From: a virus
IMG/VR virus record: IMGVR_UViG_3300010885_063274
Span: 1-20,093 of that record
Length of the DNA stretch: 20,093 nt
Reading direction: 5' to 3' (one strand)
The notes below the pieces were generated by a model that saw nothing but the letters and a program-made list of their open reading frames with translations, had not been told where the DNA came from and searched no databases. Position 1 is the stretch's first letter; each line of letters opens with the position of its first letter. The position numbers were made by a program, and so were the translations under genes. Below, piece after piece: positions 8,071 through 18,228 of the stretch.

Positions 8071-10194
8071 TTATTTTTTACTAGAATAAAGTAGAGCGGC
8101 CATATAGGTATCAACTTGATGCTCGGCCGCAATGGCCAAAACTTTACCTACTCTATCTAAATTTTTGTCAGTTGGATTATTGCAATATTCTTCAACAGAA
8201 TTTTTCCAATTTTCCTGTTCTTCATTAGCAATAATGACATTTAAAATTTCTGAACCAATTGAAATTTGAGCATCAGTTAATTTTTTAATTTTATGCTTTT
8301 TCTTTAATTGAGAAAAGATTTCTTTTTCAACTTCTTGAGATAGGAGCATATTATCTTTTAATCTAGATAAGCTAAATTGCATTTCGGGCTTTTGCTCGCT
8401 TGCTTTTGCTCCAATTGGAGAAACCTTCTTTGTGGTTTGAGGAGCCGTGGCCCCCTGTGGTCTTCCAGATGAATCTCCTGGTGTTTTTTGTCCACCAATT
8501 AAAGGAACATAAAGACCTGCATCTCTTTGTTTCTTGTAGGCCTTTTGTCCATCCTCAAGCTCGTCAATTTCTGGAAGACGATTAGTTTGAATGGCTTCAA
8601 TACCTTGCTCTGGAGTTAAAACGCCCACATCAATTAAATGGGAGTATATTTTAGTATAAAGCGGGTCATCTTTTTGGGTTGTATCATCATAATAAGGAGT
8701 TGGGTAACTCTTAAAATTGAGTGACTTTGAAATTCTCTTAATCTCTGGAATTAAAAAGTTATTTAAAAAAGCCTCCTTTGCTTGTTCAAGCCTCTTTACG
8801 AAAACTTCTATCTTCTTTTGCTGGTTGGCAAACTTTTCTCCACCCAAAAATACGTTATTCAAACCAACATTAATATCTTTATCAATAATCTCATACTTTC
8901 TTGGATCAAGTAATTCGGCAATTTTAGGAACAATAAACTCTGCTTTGGTTGTGTAATCTGCAACCAAAACTCTACCAACTGATTGATTAGTAAATAGCGT
9001 CTTAAGAGTCTCTAGATTTTTTTGATTGATTCCGCCCTTGTCTGGCTCAGTTCCAGCAGTAACAAGCAATATCATTTGCTGCATTGTTCTGGTGATGGCC
9101 ATATCAATGCGGCGCATTTCAATCTTTGCATTAATATCTTCTAAAACTGGGTAGCCCATTGGAACAGCAAAAGGTTCATAATCTTGTTTTTTATAAAAGA
9201 CAATTTTAACCTTTTTTGTATCCAAAGGAATATATACGCTTCGAACACCAGCTCGAATTTGGTCCTTTGTAAACGTGGGTAAAGAATTGAATACTTCAAT
9301 ATCTTCTTCGGTTTGTAGATTGCGAAGTCTTGAAACCTCATACTCAGTTAAAATTTTATAATAAATACCATACGAAAAGTTGGCTGTGCCCAACATATTA
9401 ATGTCAGCGGGGTTCAAGATAATGTATCTTGCTGGCATTTTCATTGGCTCTATCTCTAGTTTAATGTCTCCCTGTTGGAGCAAAGGATTATTGTCTCCAT
9501 CTTTTGGGTATCCAGTTGGATAGCCCATTTTGTTATTTTTATCCAACGCTGGGTCGCCAATAATTTTATTTTGATCAAGAACTGGATCGCCAATTGGAGT
9601 AACTCTTTTTGAAGCAAATGGATCTTTTTGGGCAGCCATGCTTTGGACCAATTTTCTAATATCATTGGGTTTAACTTCTGCATCAAAACGATAAATAAAC
9701 ACATTGCCGCTGCGATAATATTCACGAAAGAATTTATCTTGCAAATCCCAAATATTAATTTTCTTAAAAAGAGCTTCAAAGAATATTCTAGATTGTCTTG
9801 TGCCACCCTTGTAGTAGATATTGTCAATCGAAAATTCTGTCATCAAATCAATGATGTTACGAAAAAGGGCAAAATTATAATAACACTTCTGGCAAAGAAT
9901 GACGGCGTCACGAATATCAACGGCAGATTTACTTGGTCCATAGATAGCGTTAGAGTTGCGAAAAGGAACAAGGCCATCATCAATATTTTTAAAACGATCC
10001 GTTCTTTCAATTGACCCAGCTACATCTCGACGCATACCATCGCTGCCATTGGATGACGCTTCGGCAACCATCTCTGGCTCAAAGGGCGCGCTCTTTTTAT
10101 TTGTCTTTTTGGTCGTCTTCTTTGAGTCTAAAGAAGAACTAGATGATTGTGCCCCAATCATTTCTAGTTTTTCTAATTGTTTCTTTTTTTTCAT
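8071..10194 (-). CDS. Portal protein
   Basis: 707 residues, in the size range of large portal proteins, which form the dodecameric ring at the packaging vertex. Supporting segments are SKSAVDIRDAVILCQKCYYN and FREYYRSGNVFIYRFDAEVK in the N-terminal wing, PARYIILNPADINMLG, and RMIDMAITRTMQQMILLV-like sequence leading to the stem-type region ENIDKDINVGLNNVFLGGEK. The C-terminal crown-like part contains DDPLYTKIYSHLIDVGVLTPEQGIEAIQTNRLPE, the spacing typical of portal C-termini; segments here are quoted approximately. The first 50 residues are a Lys/Ser-rich, probably disordered extension. Residues 201-222 hold a short tandem repeat. It starts 8 bp after the fibre gene with no Shine-Dalgarno, so coupling to fibre translation is possible. 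Terminase upstream and protease downstream support the call. Confidence 0.85.
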   Translation of the reverse strand: MKKKKQLEKLEMIGAQSSSSSLDSKKTTKKTNKKSAPFEPEMVAEASSNGSDGMRRDVAGSIERTDRFKNIDDGLVPFRNSNAIYGPSKSAVDIRDAVILCQKCYYNFALFRNIIDLMTEFSIDNIYYKGGTRQSRIFFEALFKKINIWDLQDKFFREYYRSGNVFIYRFDAEVKPNDIRKLVQSMAAQKDPFASKRVTPIGDPVLDQNKIIGDPALDKNNKMGYPTGYPKDGDNNPLLQQGDIKLEIEPMKMPARYIILNPADINMLGTANFSYGIYYKILTEYEVSRLRNLQTEEDIEVFNSLPTFTKDQIRAGVRSVYIPLDTKKVKIVFYKKQDYEPFAVPMGYPVLEDINAKIEMRRIDMAITRTMQQMILLVTAGTEPDKGGINQKNLETLKTLFTNQSVGRVLVADYTTKAEFIVPKIAELLDPRKYEIIDKDINVGLNNVFLGGEKFANQQKKIEVFVKRLEQAKEAFLNNFLIPEIKRISKSLNFKSYPTPYYDDTTQKDDPLYTKIYSHLIDVGVLTPEQGIEAIQTNRLPEIDELEDGQKAYKKQRDAGLYVPLIGGQKTPGDSSGRPQGATAPQTTKKVSPIGAKASEQKPEMQFSLSRLKDNMLLSQEVEKEIFSQLKKKHKIKKLTDAQISIGSEILNVIIANEEQENWKNSVEEYCNNPTDKNLDRVGKVLAIAAEHQVDTYMAALLYSSKK
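9529..9594 (-). repeat. 11-residue tandem duplication inside the portal gene
   Basis: Residues 201-211 (IGDPVLDQNKI) and 212-222 (IGDPALDKNNK) are two in-frame copies, followed by Gly/Pro-rich MGYPTGYPKDG. This looks like a recent small duplication in a surface loop of the portal wing. Confidence 0.6.
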
Positions 10195-10202
10195 AAATTT
10201 TA

Positions 10203-12689
10203 TTAATAATTATATGGATTTGTATATGTTCCAAAACAAGATATTTGATTGTCTTCATCGTCCGCAAATCTTAATATTGAATAAATAAACACTTGTCCTT
10301 GATTTGGGCAAGTAAAAATATCATTTGGCCATTTTATTCTATTAGCGCTGTTTCCAGAAAAATAAAATAAAGATGGTTCACTATTACCATCTGGAACTCC
10401 CAAATTTCTAACTTTTAACAACACGCATTTTCCAGTATTAAAATATGTCCAATCAAAATCTATTCCTATTTTATCAACTCCAGGATATTGAGTTCCATCT
10501 CCACTAATTGTAATATTAAATACATCTAAACCAGAGGGTTGGAGAAGAATACCTGTTCCATTGTCATAATTTGCTACAATATTATTTGAATTCCTTAACA
10601 AGGAAGGCTGCCCAGATGGACCTTGTGGGCCAATTGGACCTTGGGGTCCTGGACCCCCAGACATTAAATTGGCACCCAAATTAACTGTAGAGTTATTATA
10701 ATTGTACCAAAGGAAATATCCACCAGATATTGTAGAATTCACAACCCCAGTACCACCAGAAGAGACCGTAAAGCTTAAAATTCCACTGGTTGAATTGTAT
10801 GAGCTTACCGTTCCAAAACAATAAGAATTTGTTACTGAATTGGAGGCAAGTATGATATTTTGATATGGAGTGTAAGAATAACCAGCTAGTCCAGAATTTC
10901 TAAACGAAACAAGTTGACCAGTTAAAAATCTTGCTCCTGTTCCACTTAAGCCGGTTCCATTTACAGTTATGCCGGTAATCCCGTTTGCATAAGATCCAAC
11001 TCCAGTGGGGAAACCAGACTGAACATAAAAACTTGAACTATATCTGTCTGCCACTCCAGATGCGCCGGTTGCTCCTGTGGCACCAATTGTTCCACTTTTT
11101 GCTAATAATTGCCAATAAATCCCATTTTCTGGTGCGTTACCGGCTGTAGGAGAGCTGCCGGTGTAGATATAAGAAGAACCAATCCTTGATACAGTGTCAT
11201 TCTGACTATATGTATTTGTATTAACATACTCTCCGCTAAAATAATTTGTTAATGAACCTGCTGGGCCGGTTGCGCCAGATGGTCCTGCTGGACCTCCTAC
11301 AGGCAATTCAATCCAATCTGATTCAGAACCATCAGAAAAAACAAACTGTATTTCGTAAACTCCTTGGTTTATGGCAACAATATCTGCTCCATTATCACCT
11401 TGTGGACCAGTGGGACCTTGTGGACCAATAGGACCAACTTCCCCTTGAATTCCTTGAATTCCTTGTGGGCCAATTGGACCAACACCAGATGAAACATATG
11501 CATCTCCAGTAATAATTGCAAAAGAATAAGCGTTTGCAATAGAATCCTCTGTCATTACTTGGTCTTGTAAAGAATAAACAATGAACCCATATTTGTATTG
11601 ATTTTGGGCGGTAAATCTAGTATTAAAAGTTAAACTTGTTCTGTATAAGTCTGGATAGTAATAGGAACCAAATACTTCGTCATTTTTTACTGCTCTTCCT
11701 GCGCTAGAGAAAGCATTTAAAAAAGTATTCTCATCTGCGTATTGACCTGAATAAATTCCAACTGGAGAATCTTTATCAAAAAATGCCAAACGCCAATATC
11801 CTGTTCCATTGTTTGGGTCTGAATAATAATTGCTCTGACCACCGATTATTCCGGTAGGAACAGTTGTCCCAGATAGCGAACCACTCAATAATAAATAATC
11901 TTGTTCATTAATTGTGTGAGTATTTAGTCCAGAAAGATCAACGGTATAAGTCATCCCCCTCATTAAAGATATTGCTGGAAAAACACTTGAATCATAATAG
12001 TCTAAAATATATGCTCCGCTTGGGAAATTAACTTGAGTATAACTTCCCGTGTTAGGAGCAAGTCCAGAATAGTAATTGAGGGTTACGGTTCCAGGAAGCC
12101 CCTGTATTCCTTGAGCGCCACTGGGTAAATAAATTGCTTTCCCAGTTCCTCTAAAATTATCAAACTGAGGATAAATAACACTGCCACTTTGAAAAAATCC
12201 AGTTACACTGATTCCTGTTGCACCACTTAAGGGAGGTATGTAAATTCCGGTGCTTGTACCATTTGATAATTGGAGATACAACTTGTATGTACTGCCACTG
12301 TAAGTTGCCCCAGTAATACTAGTTCCAGTTGCTCCAGTAATGCCCGTGGCACCACTTGGACCTTGAATACCTTGCGGCCCCTGGATTGATATAAAATTGC
12401 CTGAAGAGACAATTGTATAATTATCTATCTTAATTACGCCTGCGCCGCCAGAAGTAAAAGCGGTAACAAAAGAGCTCCCAATTTGAATTCCACTACCAGA
12501 AGGGAGCGTAATTCCATTAGAATATAAATTTTTATAATAACTTGTTGTGGAGCCAAGATTATAAACTCCAGAACTAGACGGAATAATGTTTCCAGAAGTA
12601 TTAGCCTGTGACTGTCCAGCAAAAACACTGACTATATAGCCAGAAAGTTCCGGTTGATTTAATTGTCTTAACCTAATTGTGCTGTCCAT
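10203..12689 (-). CDS. Collagen-like phage fibre / appendage protein
   Basis: 828 residues. The N-terminus (MDSTIRLRQLNQPELSGYIV) is probably the virion-anchoring part. It is followed by GVYNLGSTTSYYKNLYSNGI, a short motif common in phage fibres. Gly-X-Y collagen-like blocks occur near residues 104-122, 191-200, 404-434, 467-479, 533-545 and 679-693, separated by globular beta-rich domains. Residues 483-533 resemble a CBM5/12-type carbohydrate-binding module (aromatic, then Gly-Asp-Thr-Val, Tyr-Ile-Tyr, and a Trp near the end). The last 130 residues, with IKWPNDIF and YSILRF, resemble fibre tip domains. This points to a trimeric, surface-exposed, glycan-contacting appendage. It has AAGGA 8 bases before the ATG. 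Its place between terminase and portal is unusual and suggests a head or vertex fibre rather than a tail fibre, but this is inference. Confidence 0.75.
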   Translation of the reverse strand: MDSTIRLRQLNQPELSGYIVSVFAGQSQANTSGNIIPSSSGVYNLGSTTSYYKNLYSNGITLPSGSGIQIGSSFVTAFTSGGAGVIKIDNYTIVSSGNFISIQGPQGIQGPSGATGITGATGTSITGATYSGSTYKLYLQLSNGTSTGIYIPPLSGATGISVTGFFQSGSVIYPQFDNFRGTGKAIYLPSGAQGIQGLPGTVTLNYYSGLAPNTGSYTQVNFPSGAYILDYYDSSVFPAISLMRGMTYTVDLSGLNTHTINEQDYLLLSGSLSGTTVPTGIIGGQSNYYSDPNNGTGYWRLAFFDKDSPVGIYSGQYADENTFLNAFSSAGRAVKNDEVFGSYYYPDLYRTSLTFNTRFTAQNQYKYGFIVYSLQDQVMTEDSIANAYSFAIITGDAYVSSGVGPIGPQGIQGIQGEVGPIGPQGPTGPQGDNGADIVAINQGVYEIQFVFSDGSESDWIELPVGGPAGPSGATGPAGSLTNYFSGEYVNTNTYSQNDTVSRIGSSYIYTGSSPTAGNAPENGIYWQLLAKSGTIGATGATGASGVADRYSSSFYVQSGFPTGVGSYANGITGITVNGTGLSGTGARFLTGQLVSFRNSGLAGYSYTPYQNIILASNSVTNSYCFGTVSSYNSTSGILSFTVSSGGTGVVNSTISGGYFLWYNYNNSTVNLGANLMSGGPGPQGPIGPQGPSGQPSLLRNSNNIVANYDNGTGILLQPSGLDVFNITISGDGTQYPGVDKIGIDFDWTYFNTGKCVLLKVRNLGVPDGNSEPSLFYFSGNSANRIKWPNDIFTCPNQGQVFIYSILRFADDEDNQISCFGTYTNPYNY
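11091..11243 (-). other. CBM5/12-like carbohydrate-binding segment in the fibre
   Basis: Residues 483-533 read as a compact aromatic domain: Tyr-Phe-Ser-Gly, then Tyr-Ser-Gln-Asn-Asp-Thr-Val, then Ser-Ser-Tyr-Ile-Tyr-Thr-Gly, Pro and a closing Tyr-Trp-Gln-Leu. This order matches chitin-type CBM5/12 modules used in phage fibres to hold glycans. It is flanked on both sides by collagen-like blocks, which supports a separate domain. Confidence 0.4.
11388..11480 (-). repeat. Longest collagen-like Gly-X-Y block of the fibre
   Basis: Residues 404-434 form an almost unbroken Gly-X-Y series rich in Gly-Pro-Gln, Gly-Pro-Ile and Gly-Ile-Gln. Shorter blocks lie at 12324-12380, 11256-11291, 11055-11093 and 10611-10655. 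Such blocks form triple helices in phage fibres, which implies a trimer. Confidence 0.8.
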
Positions 12690-12744: not shown

Positions 12745-14583
12745 TTAAAACAAGATAGGCTCAAAACTAGACTGAGATTCTTCCTCTTGCACTCTGGTTA
12801 TATCATAATAGCATTTTAAGCCCCAACAAGCCAACATTAAGGCGGTATAAGAGTCTCTTCTCATTCTTGAAGAAGAGTTGTCTCTTTTCATTATTTGGGG
12901 CAAGTCAAAGCTTTGGGTGCCTTTGGCTGTGGACTTAACTTCAATTGAGGCACACTGGTACTTTGTTTGTCTCATTAACACTTCTTGCTCGTCAATAAAG
13001 TCCCCAAGAGATTCTTCATCAATTAATTGTAAATCATTATCAAGGCTTGTGGACACAGTTTTATCAAAAGTAGATTCGTCGGCCTTAATATTGGATCCAA
13101 ACCATATTTTCTTATAATCAATGCACCCCTGGAGCCATTCATTACCTTTTCTAATAAAATCTGTTGTAAAGTATTGAGTAAAAGCTATTCTATGGATTTC
13201 TTTATTGAGGCTTCTTCTGGCTATTTTTAATTGATCTTCTAGTTCTATGCCATCTTTTTCGGCGTAGAATTCGAACACTTTAATTTCAATTTTTTCTTTC
13301 TTTAACCACTCGCTTTCGTTTGCCGCTTCAAGAAATTGATAACCAGCATAGTCAATAATTATCATTTCAATATTAAAATTCTTTAAAATATAGTAGAAGT
13401 ATTTAATGTGGTCTTTTAAATCTTTACCAGCCTTGGCATAGTTATGAACAACTGTGCCTGAGCACCGTTCTTCATCCATTTCCACAACACACATGGCAAA
13501 ATGATCGGCAGTTGGAGAATTAGAGAAGTTTGGGTCAATTGCTATTAGATATTTCTTGTCTTTTTCGCCTTTTAATAAAATAGAGGGTGATTCGCCATCG
13601 GGAATACTACATTCTATCATTTTCTTCATTGAAAAATAACTATCCGACCCATCAATAAACTGGGCCCCATATTCTCTTTTAAAAGTGGCTGCATTAGACT
13701 CATTACTACCCGCCAATTGAATAATGGATTTATCAATACGGTCTGGAGGAATGGCGTTCCAAGCCAATTGACTAATGAAATACTTTTCTCCAGTTTCTGT
13801 CATACTGGGCTCATAAATCTTTTTGACAAATTCGTCATATTTCTTATAAAGAAACTCGCAAGTGTAACTTGCTGATGAAAGCCCAATAAATTTTGCTTTA
13901 TTTGGGAAAATCATTTTTTCTTCTTCTTTTAGTAGACCCCTTCTAATCAGTTCATCTTCTTTGCGACGAATGGTTTGGCGCTCATCAATGTCTTGTGGAG
14001 CCAAAAGGAATGGCATCAAAACCTTTTCAACAATTTCCTCATTCATTAACAAAAACTCATCAATAACAAGAACATTTGCGCGAAAACCACGAATCTTTTC
14101 GCCGTTTAAAGGAATGGCAACAATTTCTCCACCATTTATACTCCATCGGAATTCGTCGTTTCTCTTTGACTTTGCCCCCATTGCTTGAAAAAGTAATTTG
14201 GCGCCAGGACTATCACACATTTTTTCAATGTGATTAAAAATAAACCTTGCTGTTCTGAATGTGGGACCAGCAATTAGGATTTTTGATTTTGGAAAGAAAA
14301 TACACTGTAAAATACAAAACATTGCTGCGGAGAAAGTTTTACCAAGACCACGACCCCAAACACACATGGTATAATTACTATTTAACATTCCTTTGATGTT
14401 AATAATTTGGTCAGGGTAGAGCTTGGTTCCAGTTAATAATTCTGTAGTGAACCCAAGGTTGCGAAAAAGGAACCTTGCAAGAGTAATCTTTGCAGTTTTC
14501 TCATCAAGCTCCCCAGTCAACAATGAAAATTCTTTATTTACATCAAGAACTTCTCTTTTATATTTTTCGGGAGAATACCACAT
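12745..14583 (-). CDS. Terminase large subunit (packaging ATPase and nuclease)
   Basis: 612 residues, the usual size for TerL, which pumps DNA through the portal and cuts the concatemer. The N-terminal ATPase has a Walker A at 77-83 (GRGLGKT), a hydrophobic GPTFRTARFIF segment, Walker B at 171-176 (VLVIDE) and a coupling motif near 233-240 (FIGLSSAS). The C-terminal RNase H-fold nuclease shows its three acidic sites: Asp350 in LIAIDPNFS, Asp411 in IIIDYAGYQ and a third acidic site, probably Asp577 in MRRDSYTALMLACWG. The start codon overlaps the stop of the upstream nuclease gene by one base (TAATG), indicating translational coupling, and AGGA lies about 9 bases upstream. The fold is that of T4 gp17-like terminases. 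No intein or frameshift is seen. Confidence 0.93.
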   Translation of the reverse strand: MWYSPEKYKREVLDVNKEFSLLTGELDEKTAKITLARFLFRNLGFTTELLTGTKLYPDQIINIKGMLNSNYTMCVWGRGLGKTFSAAMFCILQCIFFPKSKILIAGPTFRTARFIFNHIEKMCDSPGAKLLFQAMGAKSKRNDEFRWSINGGEIVAIPLNGEKIRGFRANVLVIDEFLLMNEEIVEKVLMPFLLAPQDIDERQTIRRKEDELIRRGLLKEEEKMIFPNKAKFIGLSSASYTCEFLYKKYDEFVKKIYEPSMTETGEKYFISQLAWNAIPPDRIDKSIIQLAGSNESNAATFKREYGAQFIDGSDSYFSMKKMIECSIPDGESPSILLKGEKDKKYLIAIDPNFSNSPTADHFAMCVVEMDEERCSGTVVHNYAKAGKDLKDHIKYFYYILKNFNIEMIIIDYAGYQFLEAANESEWLKKEKIEIKVFEFYAEKDGIELEDQLKIARRSLNKEIHRIAFTQYFTTDFIRKGNEWLQGCIDYKKIWFGSNIKADESTFDKTVSTSLDNDLQLIDEESLGDFIDEQEVLMRQTKYQCASIEVKSTAKGTQSFDLPQIMKRDNSSSRMRRDSYTALMLACWGLKCYYDITRVQEEESQSSFEPILF

Positions 14584-15503
14584 TATAGTTTTCCTAAATC
14601 GTAGAGAAGTTGAAGATCAACATCTTTTACCTGTTCGTCAGCAGAGAATAGCTTTTGAATAACTCTGCTTGATTCATCCCTATCATTAACAAATAAGAAT
14701 TGTATATGCGTATACTTTTGCATTAAGTCTCTAATATTGTGATATAAAAACTCAACTGGTATCTTTATTTTACCAGCAACTTGTCTTTGAAGCGGAAACT
14801 TCTCTAAACTAGAAAAAGAACTTTCAACAAGTATAACCAAATACGCATTTGCTTCTTTTGCGCGAATTATCTCGCGCTCAAACCTCTCAAATCCACCAGT
14901 TAAGGTTCCCCAAGCGTCTCCAAGAGATTTTCTTTCTATATAAACTGAAGAACCCTTCATTCTATAGTCTCCAAAAGACATGCCTTTAACTCTTGTTCGG
15001 TTGTCAAATTCTAAAGCTTTTTGCTCTCTTGAGTCAGTAAAGATAAACTTCTTGGAAACATCTTTGAATTTTTTTTCATCTAAACTATTCGAGGAAAACC
15101 TAATTTCTAAACCAATTGCATTGCACAAATTAGAGTAGGAACCAAATTGATCACTTATATATTTTATGCCTGGGACCATCATAGTTTTTAATTCAACTTG
15201 AGTTGGTGCATATTTTAGTTTGCCTTTTTCTTTGCGCTTGACTAAGATTTCTTTGATATAGCTTTTTGCCAATTCGGGGGCAACAGACATTAGCCATCCC
15301 TTTAACGAGGCCTTTGAGTTAAAGTCGGCAGAAAAATATTGTTCTTTGTTTTTGTATTTGATTATTAGGCCAGTATACCTATCTTTTCTAGGGAAATGAG
15401 TCTGATAGTATTCTGTTTGTCTAATTTTATGAGCTTTTAAATGATGATGCAGAGAAACATCATTCTCAAATTTTTTAGAGCATATTGCGCAAGCAAGATT
15501 CAT
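14583..15503 (-). CDS. C2H2 zinc finger / HNH-type repeat / ERCC4 (XPF-like) nuclease
   Basis: 306 residues with three recognisable parts. Residues 5-25 form a perfect classical C2H2 finger (Cys5-x2-Cys8-x12-His21-x3-His25). Residues about 82-133 match the repeat often attached to HNH and homing endonucleases: a helix, an APTQ-like turn, then DQFGSYSNLCNAIGLE. Residues about 152-270 form an ERCC4-type nuclease: FTDSREQ (Asp157, Glu160), MSFGDYR (Asp179) and the catalytic ERKxxxD as ERKSLGD (190-196). XPF-type enzymes cut branched or flapped DNA. The gene lies between the putative small terminase and TerL and overlaps the TerL start by one base, so a role in trimming branched DNA for packaging is attractive. 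A freestanding homing-like nuclease that has settled there is the alternative. Confidence 0.8.
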   Translation of the reverse strand: MNLACAICSKKFENDVSLHHHLKAHKIRQTEYYQTHFPRKDRYTGLIIKYKNKEQYFSADFNSKASLKGWLMSVAPELAKSYIKEILVKRKEKGKLKYAPTQVELKTMMVPGIKYISDQFGSYSNLCNAIGLEIRFSSNSLDEKKFKDVSKKFIFTDSREQKALEFDNRTRVKGMSFGDYRMKGSSVYIERKSLGDAWGTLTGGFERFEREIIRAKEANAYLVILVESSFSSLEKFPLQRQVAGKIKIPVEFLYHNIRDLMQKYTHIQFLFVNDRDESSRVIQKLFSADEQVKDVDLQLLYDLGKL

Positions 15504-15506
15504 AAA

Positions 15507-16616
15507 TTATCCATACAATATATCGTCTTTATTTAAGCCAAGGATTCTGGCTTTAATTTCATCCATACTAGTGAGTTTTTCAACTTCTTGGGCAATTGCA
15601 TCTTGTTCAATTTGAACATACTTAATCATTTTCTTACGCTCTTCTTCGTCGCGCCACATTTGCACAAGGTTCAAGATGGATGCATTTTCCTTAATTTGTT
15701 TTGAAAGGCGGGTGCTTCTTTTTTCTTTCAAATCGTCAAGGAGTTTTTGTTGGCGCTTAATGCATTGGTCATATTCAGTGCTGGCCTTACCAATTGCTTC
15801 TACAAGACCCATTGAAACTTTCATTGTGTCTGGGTCATTGCCAGTTATTTCTTCAAGGGCAAACTGCATTCTTTCGCTGCGACGCAAAACCTTGAATCCT
15901 TGCACAACTTGATTTGATAATTCAATGTATTGGTCAACTTCTTCTTGATTTAAATCGGGCTTATCGTAAGTATAGCGAACAAAAGCGTCTTCACAAAGCG
16001 TTCGGTCATCCTCACTGTCAAAAGTATTCATTTGTTTAATAAAACGAAATGTGTGCAAGTAATTTATAAGAGCCTCTAAACCCTTTTTTTGATGGTTCTT
16101 TAAGTTTTCCTTGTCAAGAGTGCAGTTAACATATTTGTTTACTCTTCTTAAGACTTTTTCAATGGTTGCGGGGGGTTGATAATTCTCTGCGGGAATATCA
16201 TCATTCTTAGCTTGGTTATAAATTACTTTTGTGTCAAGAGTTTTAACAAACTCATTTACTGCCCGGGTTTCTGAATTTAAATTGGTGAGACCATTATTTT
16301 GAAAAATAATTTTTGCAATCTCAAGCGAATTCATTGTGGAGACATTATTTATAATGAATTGCCGGTGTTCTTCGCTTAGTTGCTTTTCATTGGTTTTAGG
16401 AACATAATCACTGGTCGCTTTTGCTTTTAGATTATATTTTGATAAAGACTTTTTTACTGCGCGCCCCTGGGAACTTCTGCCATCAAAATCGCCACCAAAT
16501 AACTCTTTTGTAATTTCTTTTAATCCTGGTGGAGCTTCTGGTGTCTTGTTCCAGAAATCCATCATCTGCTTCTCTTGTTCGGGGGTAAGAGATTCTATTT
16601 CTGGAGCATTTTCCAT
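15507..16616 (-). CDS. Double-HTH coiled-coil protein, candidate small terminase
   Basis: 369 residues. Two related segments, residues 9-65 and 78-130, each look like a helix-turn-helix unit: LTPEQEKQMMDFW...ITKELFGG...QGRAVKKSL and LSEEHRQFIINNV...IAKIIFQNN...ETRAVNEFV. A mostly helical middle follows (about 150-250). Residues 275-350 form a strongly charged coiled coil. DNA-binding repeats plus an oligomerising helical domain fit a terminase small subunit that recognises the pac or cos site. No other candidate is present, and the gene is in the TerS-TerL neighbourhood with one gene between. It starts 1 bp after the sigma gene's stop, with GAAGG about 12 bases upstream. It is longer than most small terminases (100-250 aa), so the call is tentative. 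Confidence 0.45.
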   Translation of the reverse strand: MENAPEIESLTPEQEKQMMDFWNKTPEAPPGLKEITKELFGGDFDGRSSQGRAVKKSLSKYNLKAKATSDYVPKTNEKQLSEEHRQFIINNVSTMNSLEIAKIIFQNNGLTNLNSETRAVNEFVKTLDTKVIYNQAKNDDIPAENYQPPATIEKVLRRVNKYVNCTLDKENLKNHQKKGLEALINYLHTFRFIKQMNTFDSEDDRTLCEDAFVRYTYDKPDLNQEEVDQYIELSNQVVQGFKVLRRSERMQFALEEITGNDPDTMKVSMGLVEAIGKASTEYDQCIKRQQKLLDDLKEKRSTRLSKQIKENASILNLVQMWRDEEERKKMIKYVQIEQDAIAQEVEKLTSMDEIKARILGLNKDDILYG

Positions 16617-16617
16617 A

Positions 16618-17298
16618 TTAATATAAACCTTCTTTTTCTATATATTCCTTAGCTTTAGCAATTATTGATTTTGTTATATTTTTTATTTGTCTGTATCCTG
16701 GGGTGCGGCCCTTTTCATTAGAAATGAAACCTAATTTTTTTGCAATAACAGATTCTTCTTCGTTGTCAATATATAAGCCTTTGTATACTTGATATTCTAT
16801 TGGCTTTAATATTTTTTTCATTAAGGTGTGCAGCTTTTTTATGTCTTCTATGCCGTAATTGTTGTTGTCTGGAATATCATAGACTTCGTGGTTGTGATTT
16901 TCTATAGAAACAGGAAGCTTAACAAAAGTTGCGGGTTGTTTGTGTTTTTTCCAATGGGCAAATAGGGGGCATGCTTCACACTGCTCTTTGTATATCTTGC
17001 ACCCGTCATTATCAATTGCGGCATCACACCTTAAACAAGGGCGGGCATAATTTGTGTAATGATTTCTGATTAAGTTTCGAAGTTGATTGGTTATAATTAT
17101 ACTTATCCAAGGCTGCAGTGGTTTTTCGGGATTGTATTGTTTCCATTTTTGGTAAATGTGAAAGCGAATAATCTGAGAAACATCGTCATAATCCATCCAG
17201 GCTATTGAAGATAAATTCCATTTTGATTTTCTTTTTGTTATTTCTTGATTGATTAAAGCCAAACAATCCTCAAATTTTGGGCGCTTTATTTTTCTCAT
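16618..17298 (-). CDS. Sigma-70-like transcription factor with zinc-knuckle insert
   Basis: 226 residues. Residues 36-84 match sigma region 2: an acidic DYDDVSQIIRFHIY helix, then KPLQPWISIIITNQLRNLIRNHY, which has the Trp-Ile and Asn/Arg pattern of region 2.2-2.3. Residues 160-218 match region 4: IEYQVYKGLYIDNEEESVIAKKLGF followed by a basic recognition-like helix. Between them is a cysteine cluster (Cys88, 91, 100, 107, 110), which should bind zinc. Phage sigma-like factors direct host RNA polymerase to late promoters, as T4 gp55 does. The gene starts 2 bases upstream of the previous gene's stop region with no Shine-Dalgarno, and the zinc-ribbon gene upstream is its likely operon partner. 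The sigma call is by pattern; the promoter class it reads is unknown. Confidence 0.65.
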   Translation of the reverse strand: MRKIKRPKFEDCLALINQEITKRKSKWNLSSIAWMDYDDVSQIIRFHIYQKWKQYNPEKPLQPWISIIITNQLRNLIRNHYTNYARPCLRCDAAIDNDGCKIYKEQCEACPLFAHWKKHKQPATFVKLPVSIENHNHEVYDIPDNNNYGIEDIKKLHTLMKKILKPIEYQVYKGLYIDNEEESVIAKKLGFISNEKGRTPGYRQIKNITKSIIAKAKEYIEKEGLY

Positions 17299-17299
17299 T

Positions 17300-17722
17300 T
17301 TATTTTTGTCTTAATGTGCCTGCCTCATTTTTGAATTGTTGCAAAAAGGTTTGATGATCAACTAGCGCAGGCGTTCCCCTTGTAAAACTATCTGCATTTT
17401 GAGGCAGTGATGAACCTTGCTTAACTAAATTTCCAACGTTTTCTCTTGATGGATTATCTTGCCTAATATATTCTACGTCTAATGCAGACATGGAAATATC
17501 CAAATGACTCAGGTGATCAATATAACTATCATCATCATCATCTCCTTCTCCCCTTGCTACTGGAGTAAAAGTTGATTGTGGTCTATTTTTTGGCTTAACT
17601 TGTTCCTCAACTGGAGGCTTTGAAGATAAAGAAGCTTGGGATGTTCCGCACTCTGGACAGAACTTTGCAATGGGGACCAGCTTTATCCCACAATGATGAC
17701 AAAATTTATTTTGTATACTCAT
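17300..17722 (-). CDS. Zinc-ribbon protein upstream of the sigma-like factor
   Basis: 140 residues. Residues 8-27 form a compact zinc ribbon with two knuckles (FCHHCGIK and FCPECGTS), the arrangement seen in many small zinc-ribbon domains. The rest is low complexity: a Lys/Pro linker, then a GEGDDDDDS acidic run, then a polar tail with a short hydrophobic LDISMSALDVEYI segment near 74-86 that could dock onto a partner. There is 1 bp between its stop and the sigma-like ATG, so the two are almost certainly co-translated. A transcription co-factor acting with the sigma protein is a reasonable inference, but nothing in the sequence proves it. No Shine-Dalgarno is visible; the leader is TATTATAAAATAAATTAAAT. 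Confidence 0.55.
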   Translation of the reverse strand: MSIQNKFCHHCGIKLVPIAKFCPECGTSQASLSSKPPVEEQVKPKNRPQSTFTPVARGEGDDDDDSYIDHLSHLDISMSALDVEYIRQDNPSRENVGNLVKQGSSLPQNADSFTRGTPALVDHQTFLQQFKNEAGTLRQK

Positions 17723-17778
17723 ATTTAATTTATTTTATAATAGAAAGACAGCTATTTATTAGAAATTTACACAAGTTT
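17723..17778. promoter_or_regulatory. Divergent promoter region between zinc-ribbon and plus-strand gene
   Basis: This 56-bp AT-rich gap separates the only divergent gene pair inside the cluster. On the plus strand a perfect TATAAT lies at 17736-17741, 37 bases before the 17779 ATG, with only a weak TTGTAT as -35. On the minus strand there are TAATAAATA, resembling a T4-type late box (TATAAATA), and TGTGTAAATT, related to the AGTGTAAT motif. Both directions therefore have candidate start sites. Confidence 0.5.
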
Positions 17779-18228
17779 ATGCCAAACCTATTTTATCCCA
17801 TACCAAAAGAAGAAAAAGTTGAATTTTTTGTTAAGTGCCAAGAGCTCTTGATAAAACATCATTCCACCAGCAATTTCATTGTAAAAGAGAGTAATTTGGA
17901 AGAAGCGGCAGACATATTTATGGACAAAATCGACAAATATAAAGGGTATTATTATTTTGATGAAAATGTTTGTATTTTATGGAATCATGTTTTCATTTCT
18001 GACCCAAATGATGCAAATGGGTCACTAATTGAAAACGCTTATAAAGCGCCGCACCCAAATTATAATGCAGCAAGCATGGACTTTGTAGTGTGCAGAAGAG
18101 TGACCGACATTCTTAGGTTTGCCAAAGAGAATGACTCTGCACAAGTAAAATACTTGCTTTCAATAAAAAATGGCCGCACCAAGCTCCTTAAAAAAGAAGA
18201 CTTGTTAAAGAATATTAAATCTTTTTAG
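17779..18228 (+). CDS. Uncharacterised 149-aa protein, lone plus-strand gene in the cluster
   Basis: I chose the ATG at 17779, because the frame upstream of it overlaps the zinc-ribbon gene and lacks a leader. The product starts MPNLFYPIPKEEKVEFFVKC, is mixed alpha/beta in composition, and has an aromatic core (GYYYFDENVCILWNHVFISD) and a later SMDFVVCRRVTDILRF segment. It ends in a basic KKEDLLKNIKSF tail. No catalytic or binding motif is recognised. Its last 14 bases overlap the end of phoH, which runs the other way. A perfect TATAAT 37 bases upstream suggests it has its own early-type promoter. The ribosome binding site is poor. It is a real gene by length and protein-like composition, but of unknown function. 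Confidence 0.6.
   Translation: MPNLFYPIPKEEKVEFFVKCQELLIKHHSTSNFIVKESNLEEAADIFMDKIDKYKGYYYFDENVCILWNHVFISDPNDANGSLIENAYKAPHPNYNAASMDFVVCRRVTDILRFAKENDSAQVKYLLSIKNGRTKLLKKEDLLKNIKSF

Follow-up and report, generated by a model that had tools for sequence, protein, structure and literature searches.

The cellular enzymes of the XPF type bind DNA or partners through a tandem helix-hairpin-helix (HhH) domain. In phage T4 the DNA is debranched for packaging by endonuclease VII (gp49) (PMC3485210, PMC9958956). Attached to the portal, this resolvase releases motors that have stalled on Y-DNA or branched DNA (PMC9958956). HNH proteins, too, are described as packaging components (PMC5304195). According to a survey of jumbo phages, several of them lack a recognised resolvase, and where phages have RuvC, it comes without a coupled RuvB (PMC7824862). 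In a search of mostly open-access literature, no publication on a linkage of ERCC4 nucleases to the terminase was found.

We here describe such a linkage. The window, i.e., the whole stretch of 20,093 nucleotides that was analysed (IMG/VR record IMGVR_UViG_3300010885_063274), encodes an XPF-type nuclease next to the large terminase TerL. The pertinent features are:

8071..10194, minus strand: conserved protein of 707 amino acids, probable portal by position; downstream of terL in relatives, no family match
12745..14583, minus strand: TerL, the large terminase (PF03237; Terminase_6N, E 2e-8 in Pfam; PHROG_2)
14583..15503, minus strand: ERCC4 (XPF-type) nuclease of 306 amino acids with an ATG start (Pfam, PHROG, AlphaFold2 model, fold match, conserved family)
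14634..15053, minus strand: its ERCC4 nuclease domain, residues 151-290, with DxRE, GDY and ERKxxxD motifs (Pfam, fold, conservation)
15105..15221, minus strand: its HNH_repeat-like helical segment, residues 95-133 (PF18780 below threshold; helices 102-106, 113-120 and 123-130 in the model)
15429..15491, minus strand: its C2H2 zinc finger, residues 5-25 with C5, C8, H21 and H25 (conservation in 151 relatives)
15507..16616, minus strand: probable small terminase of 369 amino acids, ending 3 bases ahead of the nuclease gene; no family match
16618..17298, minus strand: sigma-70-like factor (PF04542), a conserved neighbour

By profile, motif and fold, the 306-residue protein is a member of the XPF/Hef/MUS81 (ERCC4) superfamily. 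It matches PF02732 with an E value of 5.5e-7 and 30.0 bits (cut-off 24) and PHROG 3490, “ERCC4-type nuclease”, with an E value of 1.9e-11; PF02732 also matches all of 21 diverse relatives at E 0.1 or better. Pyrococcus Hef was reached by sequence from the family profile (E 5e-6). The AlphaFold2 model has a mean pLDDT of 88, and XPF of Aeropyrum pernix (2bgw) superimposes on it with a Z score of 13.0 and an rmsd of 2.4 over 124 residues. These fall within residues 151-290; the fold search was run with the whole model and says little on the N-terminal 150 residues. The catalytic E190-R191-K192-x3-D196 is present, as are D157, R159, E160, G178 and D179, which completes the motif GDXnERKX3D. In a set of 151 non-identical relatives D157, R159, E160, D179, E190, R191, K192 and D196 are invariant, and G178 is kept in 150. 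An earlier note, made from the letters of this DNA, had proposed an XPF-type nuclease with ERKxxxD, and this proposal is borne out.

The nuclease domain is preceded by the finger at the N-terminus and by helices in the middle of the chain, which ends about 16 residues past the domain. A tandem HhH C-terminal to the nuclease domain is absent, and no HhH family occurs among the Pfam matches. Nor is endonuclease VII (PF02945) found among the Pfam matches at E values up to 1. The finger that the earlier note had seen has the classical C2H2 spacing, C5-x2-C8-x12-H21-x3-H25. Each of the four ligands is retained in 148-151 of the 151 relatives, and the family profile matches solved C2H2 fingers; the Pfam zinc-finger matches of the single window protein all stay under the cut-off. 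Two near-identical contigs (L133 and L134) encode a nuclease without the finger region, the match beginning around position 69 of the family profile; being too short, they were left out of the 151-protein set. Of the HNH-associated repeat proposed in the same note only a resemblance remains: PF18780 matches with E 0.0059 and 17.4 bits, the cut-off being 26, and merely three of the 21 diverse relatives display a similarly weak match below the cut-off. Segment 95-133 is possibly an extra DNA-binding part.

The nuclease gene is under purifying selection. Compared with its relative in L002, dN is 0.051 and dS is 0.76, which corresponds to a dN/dS of about 0.07. The evolutionary distances of the nuclease, TerL and the 369-residue protein correlate with r of about 0.8, as is expected for joint inheritance.

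The stop codon of the nuclease gene and the ATG of TerL overlap by one base (TAATG), exactly as had been noticed before, and AGGA is found just ahead of this ATG. Is this neighbourhood constant? A first search with the nuclease yielded 38 viral loci. Alignment-based scans with the nuclease or with TerL then disclosed about 470-590 related stretches each, of which the best 80 per scan were kept. Loci with at least 1.1 kb available upstream of TerL were considered testable. Among all loci collected in this way the nuclease is encoded upstream of TerL in 305 of 305 testable ones, which form 144 clusters at 95% TerL identity or 29 clusters at 70%. Since the scans retain the most similar relatives, this count holds for TerL proteins that share some 45% identity or more. 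If only new loci fetched via TerL are considered, the nuclease is there in 119 of 119 (71 clusters at 95%), with the same range of validity. The survey of gene neighbours suggested in the earlier note thus reveals a constant linkage.

The spacing is less uniform. Between nuclease stop and TerL start the gap is −1 in 70 of 144 loci, i.e., in about half of them, and +1 in 32. In about nine of the 144, an extra gene of 550-950 bp is inserted, which by eye is of the HNH/NUMOD type, 2OG-oxygenase-like or methyltransferase-like. Tight coupling is, therefore, not essential: the translational coupling, presumed earlier to lock the nuclease to TerL, is typical but not strict. The nuclease/terL junction looks like an insertion hot spot (L129, L133, L144, L152, L189, L269, L275 and others). 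The linkage is one of co-inheritance and probably of shared expression; it does not show contact between the proteins.

The wider gene order is also kept: PhoH, a zinc ribbon (in close relatives), the sigma factor, the 369-residue protein, the nuclease, TerL and the probable portal. The sigma-70-like factor is probably a late transcription factor of the nuclease/terL operon. Of the 144 non-redundant loci, 141 have the 369-residue protein upstream of the nuclease; the model of this protein consists of helical N-terminal modules followed by a long coiled coil. It has no match by profile (Pfam, PHROG) or by PDB fold and is for this reason graded as a probable small terminase only. Of the earlier placement of the nuclease between small terminase and TerL, then, the TerL side is confirmed, while the other side stays probable. 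Further genes in the window comprise one for an 828-residue protein with collagen-like GPxG repeats (10203-12689, minus strand); it separates terL from the probable portal gene and has matches in close relatives but none in more distant ones. An open reading frame for 202 amino acids (17620-18228, plus strand) lies antisense to the zinc-ribbon gene and overlaps it; it is kept in close relatives and has no family match.

Cultured relatives that cover the whole window protein were not found; the ERCC4 domains of haloviruses are the sole match. With the ERCC4 protein of the halovirus HRTV-27 as query, six other viral loci were returned. In four of these, the gene for an ERCC4-only protein of about 150-170 residues overlaps the beginning of terL, whose product is just 23-24% identical to the TerL of the window. 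A TerL-anchored scan together with these four yielded 75 loci with ERCC4 at most 700 bp upstream; in L429 and L455 it lies farther upstream. In this second group (loci L380-L383 and L389-L467, 66 clusters at 95% TerL identity), ERCC4 is thus upstream of terL in 77 of 77 testable loci; L443 and L463 were left out of the count, as they comprise too little upstream sequence. ERCC4 and terL are often separated by a gene of about 600 bp, in whose place L443 has a gene for a ClpP-like protease. The nucleases of the second group have no zinc finger, and nearly all read ERKxxxxE instead of ERKxxxD. For each of the two uncultured groups IMG/VR holds hundreds of matches. A genome collection of 84,980 species yielded a single one (L191, Flavobacteriales MAG NAT55), which possibly hints at the host or reflects a binning error; it is too weak to call a host.

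The haloviruses themselves are different. In HRTV-27 the ERCC4 gene is about 40 kb from terL, and no terminase is found within 1.5 kb of the ERCC4 gene in HSTV-2 and HCTV-6. The side of terL is, hence, not the default place for ERCC4 genes. This contrast and the TerL-anchored sampling rule out a chance neighbourhood of nuclease and terL. In the trees both TerL groups and the ERCC4 group of the window are supported clades. The two TerL groups are adjacent with weak support (86/59), whereas in the ERCC4 tree the haloviral sequences join the window group (96/91), with long branches. The latter grouping suggests two recruitments to terL or a transfer, an uncertain choice given these branches.

The replication equipment of these phages was inspected in the larger records. 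A relative of 170 kb (G001) encodes the alpha subunit of Pol III, DnaB, RecA/UvsX, a protein of the tubulin/FtsZ family and RIIA/RIIB. It also encodes

L346:8622-9593, plus strand, in the 170-kb G001: RuvB-like AAA+ protein (structure alignment)

Of 24 related records, 11 contain a protein of this kind, one of the 11 being the bacterial MAG. The RuvB-like protein aligns to RuvB structures along its length, its score being below the RuvB equivalog cut-off. In 12 large records of the family neither RuvC nor RusA nor RuvA was detected, while the positive controls were. Endonuclease VII did not exceed the cut-off in the virus records of the family, and the controls, too, matched only below it. The same holds for the second group, where 11 records were scanned and no RuvC was found either. 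A search for T7 endonuclease I gave no matches, nor did the control genomes. This lack of any other resolvase is suggestive only, because the contigs may be incomplete.

What, then, is the nuclease good for? Most probably, though by no means with certainty, it is the branch-clearing enzyme of the packaging machine, with a role like that of T4 gp49. In this analogy, a structure-specific endonuclease would have become a dedicated part of the packaging module of a large group of uncultured tailed phages, produced from the gene cluster that also encodes TerL and the probable small terminase. Its substrates would most likely be Y-forks, flaps or four-way junctions that arise from recombination-dependent replication. 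It would cut these before the motor reaches them or once the motor has stalled on them, and in this way allow TerL to keep translocating. The C2H2 finger and the helical middle probably stand in for the tandem HhH of cellular XPF. In favour of this role are the ERCC4 profile and fold, the invariant active site and the linkage to terL in two groups; RecA/UvsX, the RuvB-like helicase and the failure to find RuvC or RusA in the 12 large, possibly incomplete records fit as well. Against it count the preference of cellular XPF and MUS81 for flaps and forks above intact Holliday junctions and the genes that in some loci separate the nuclease from terL. That the protein cuts DNA, prefers such substrates, touches the motor and forms dimers is what we infer.

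The main rival explanation sees in the protein an accessory nuclease of packaging initiation that, together with TerS, labels the pac or cos site or cleaves it, a role proposed for terminase-adjacent HNH proteins of the HK97 gp74 type. Its gene indeed lies between the probable TerS and TerL, and the finger and the helical segment could recognise a particular DNA sequence. In the cultured phage Slash, whose TerL is distantly related, the equivalent place is taken by an HNH endonuclease, a position that fits initiation and branch clearing alike. Yet XPF-type domains recognise the structure of DNA, not its sequence, and the second group keeps the linkage without finger and helical part. We thus consider a function in initiation unlikely. 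The nuclease might also be a general late enzyme of recombination or replication without any link to packaging, its gene merely riding in the late cluster. The RecA/UvsX of the large phage, the RuvB-like helicase in about half of the records and the position of the haloviral relatives outside a packaging module would be in line with this; however, two groups whose TerLs differ greatly both have the gene upstream of terL without exception, and the ERCC4 parts of these groups are not joined in the tree. A mere passenger is, therefore, quite improbable.

Descent from a homing-type nuclease had also been read from the repeat. The weak resemblance to HNH_repeat and the HNH homing-type genes that, by eye, adjoin the nuclease in L129, L133 and L152 could be quoted for a homing origin or activity beside terL. 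ERCC4, however, is not a homing fold, the repeat stays below the cut-off and is seen in few relatives, and the gene is never missing from its locus and evolves under constraint. Being universal there instead of sporadic, it does not behave like a homing gene, and the HNH genes are separate insertions in a few relatives. This descent is rejected; we would give it hardly any chance.

Returning to branch clearing, the findings suggest that a repair-type nuclease clears branched DNA during packaging in two phage groups, and they argue for an XPF-type enzyme as an alternative to endonuclease VII. More tentatively, and with somewhat more doubt than conviction, XPF-type nucleases might be regarded as a further class of phage enzymes that resolve junctions or forks: lasting members of the packaging machine, recruited beside terL at least twice (in a C2H2 form and in a bare ERKxxxxE form), and in the group of the window acting in place of RuvC together with a RuvB-like branch-migration helicase. 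If two groups have an XPF-type enzyme permanently next to terL, part of the gap left by missing resolvases would be filled. The coupling of debranching and packaging could then be put to the test through a nuclease domain whose mechanism is known, and the terL-linked ERCC4 can serve as an annotation marker for both groups.

How does the protein compare with known systems? With T4 endonuclease VII it shares the proposed debranching role; the fold, in contrast, is unrelated, gp49 being a His-Me/HNH enzyme that binds the portal and whose gene is not known to adjoin gene 17. HK97 gp74, GVE2 HNHE and Slash_32 likewise are nucleases encoded beside terL, but they differ by their HNH fold; the HNH protein of HK97 is linked to cos cleavage. 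The haloviral proteins of HRTV-27, HSTV-2 and HCTV-6 have the same domain and are the nearest cultured relatives by sequence; unlike the window nuclease, they consist of a single domain and are encoded away from terL. With XPF of Aeropyrum pernix and Hef of Pyrococcus, finally, the nuclease fold (Z 12-13) and the motifs DxRE, GD and ERKxxxD are common. Compared with XPF, Hef and MUS81, the phage protein does without the C-terminal tandem HhH and the helicase domain; it has an N-terminal C2H2 finger and a helical module, and its gene resides in a phage terminase cluster.
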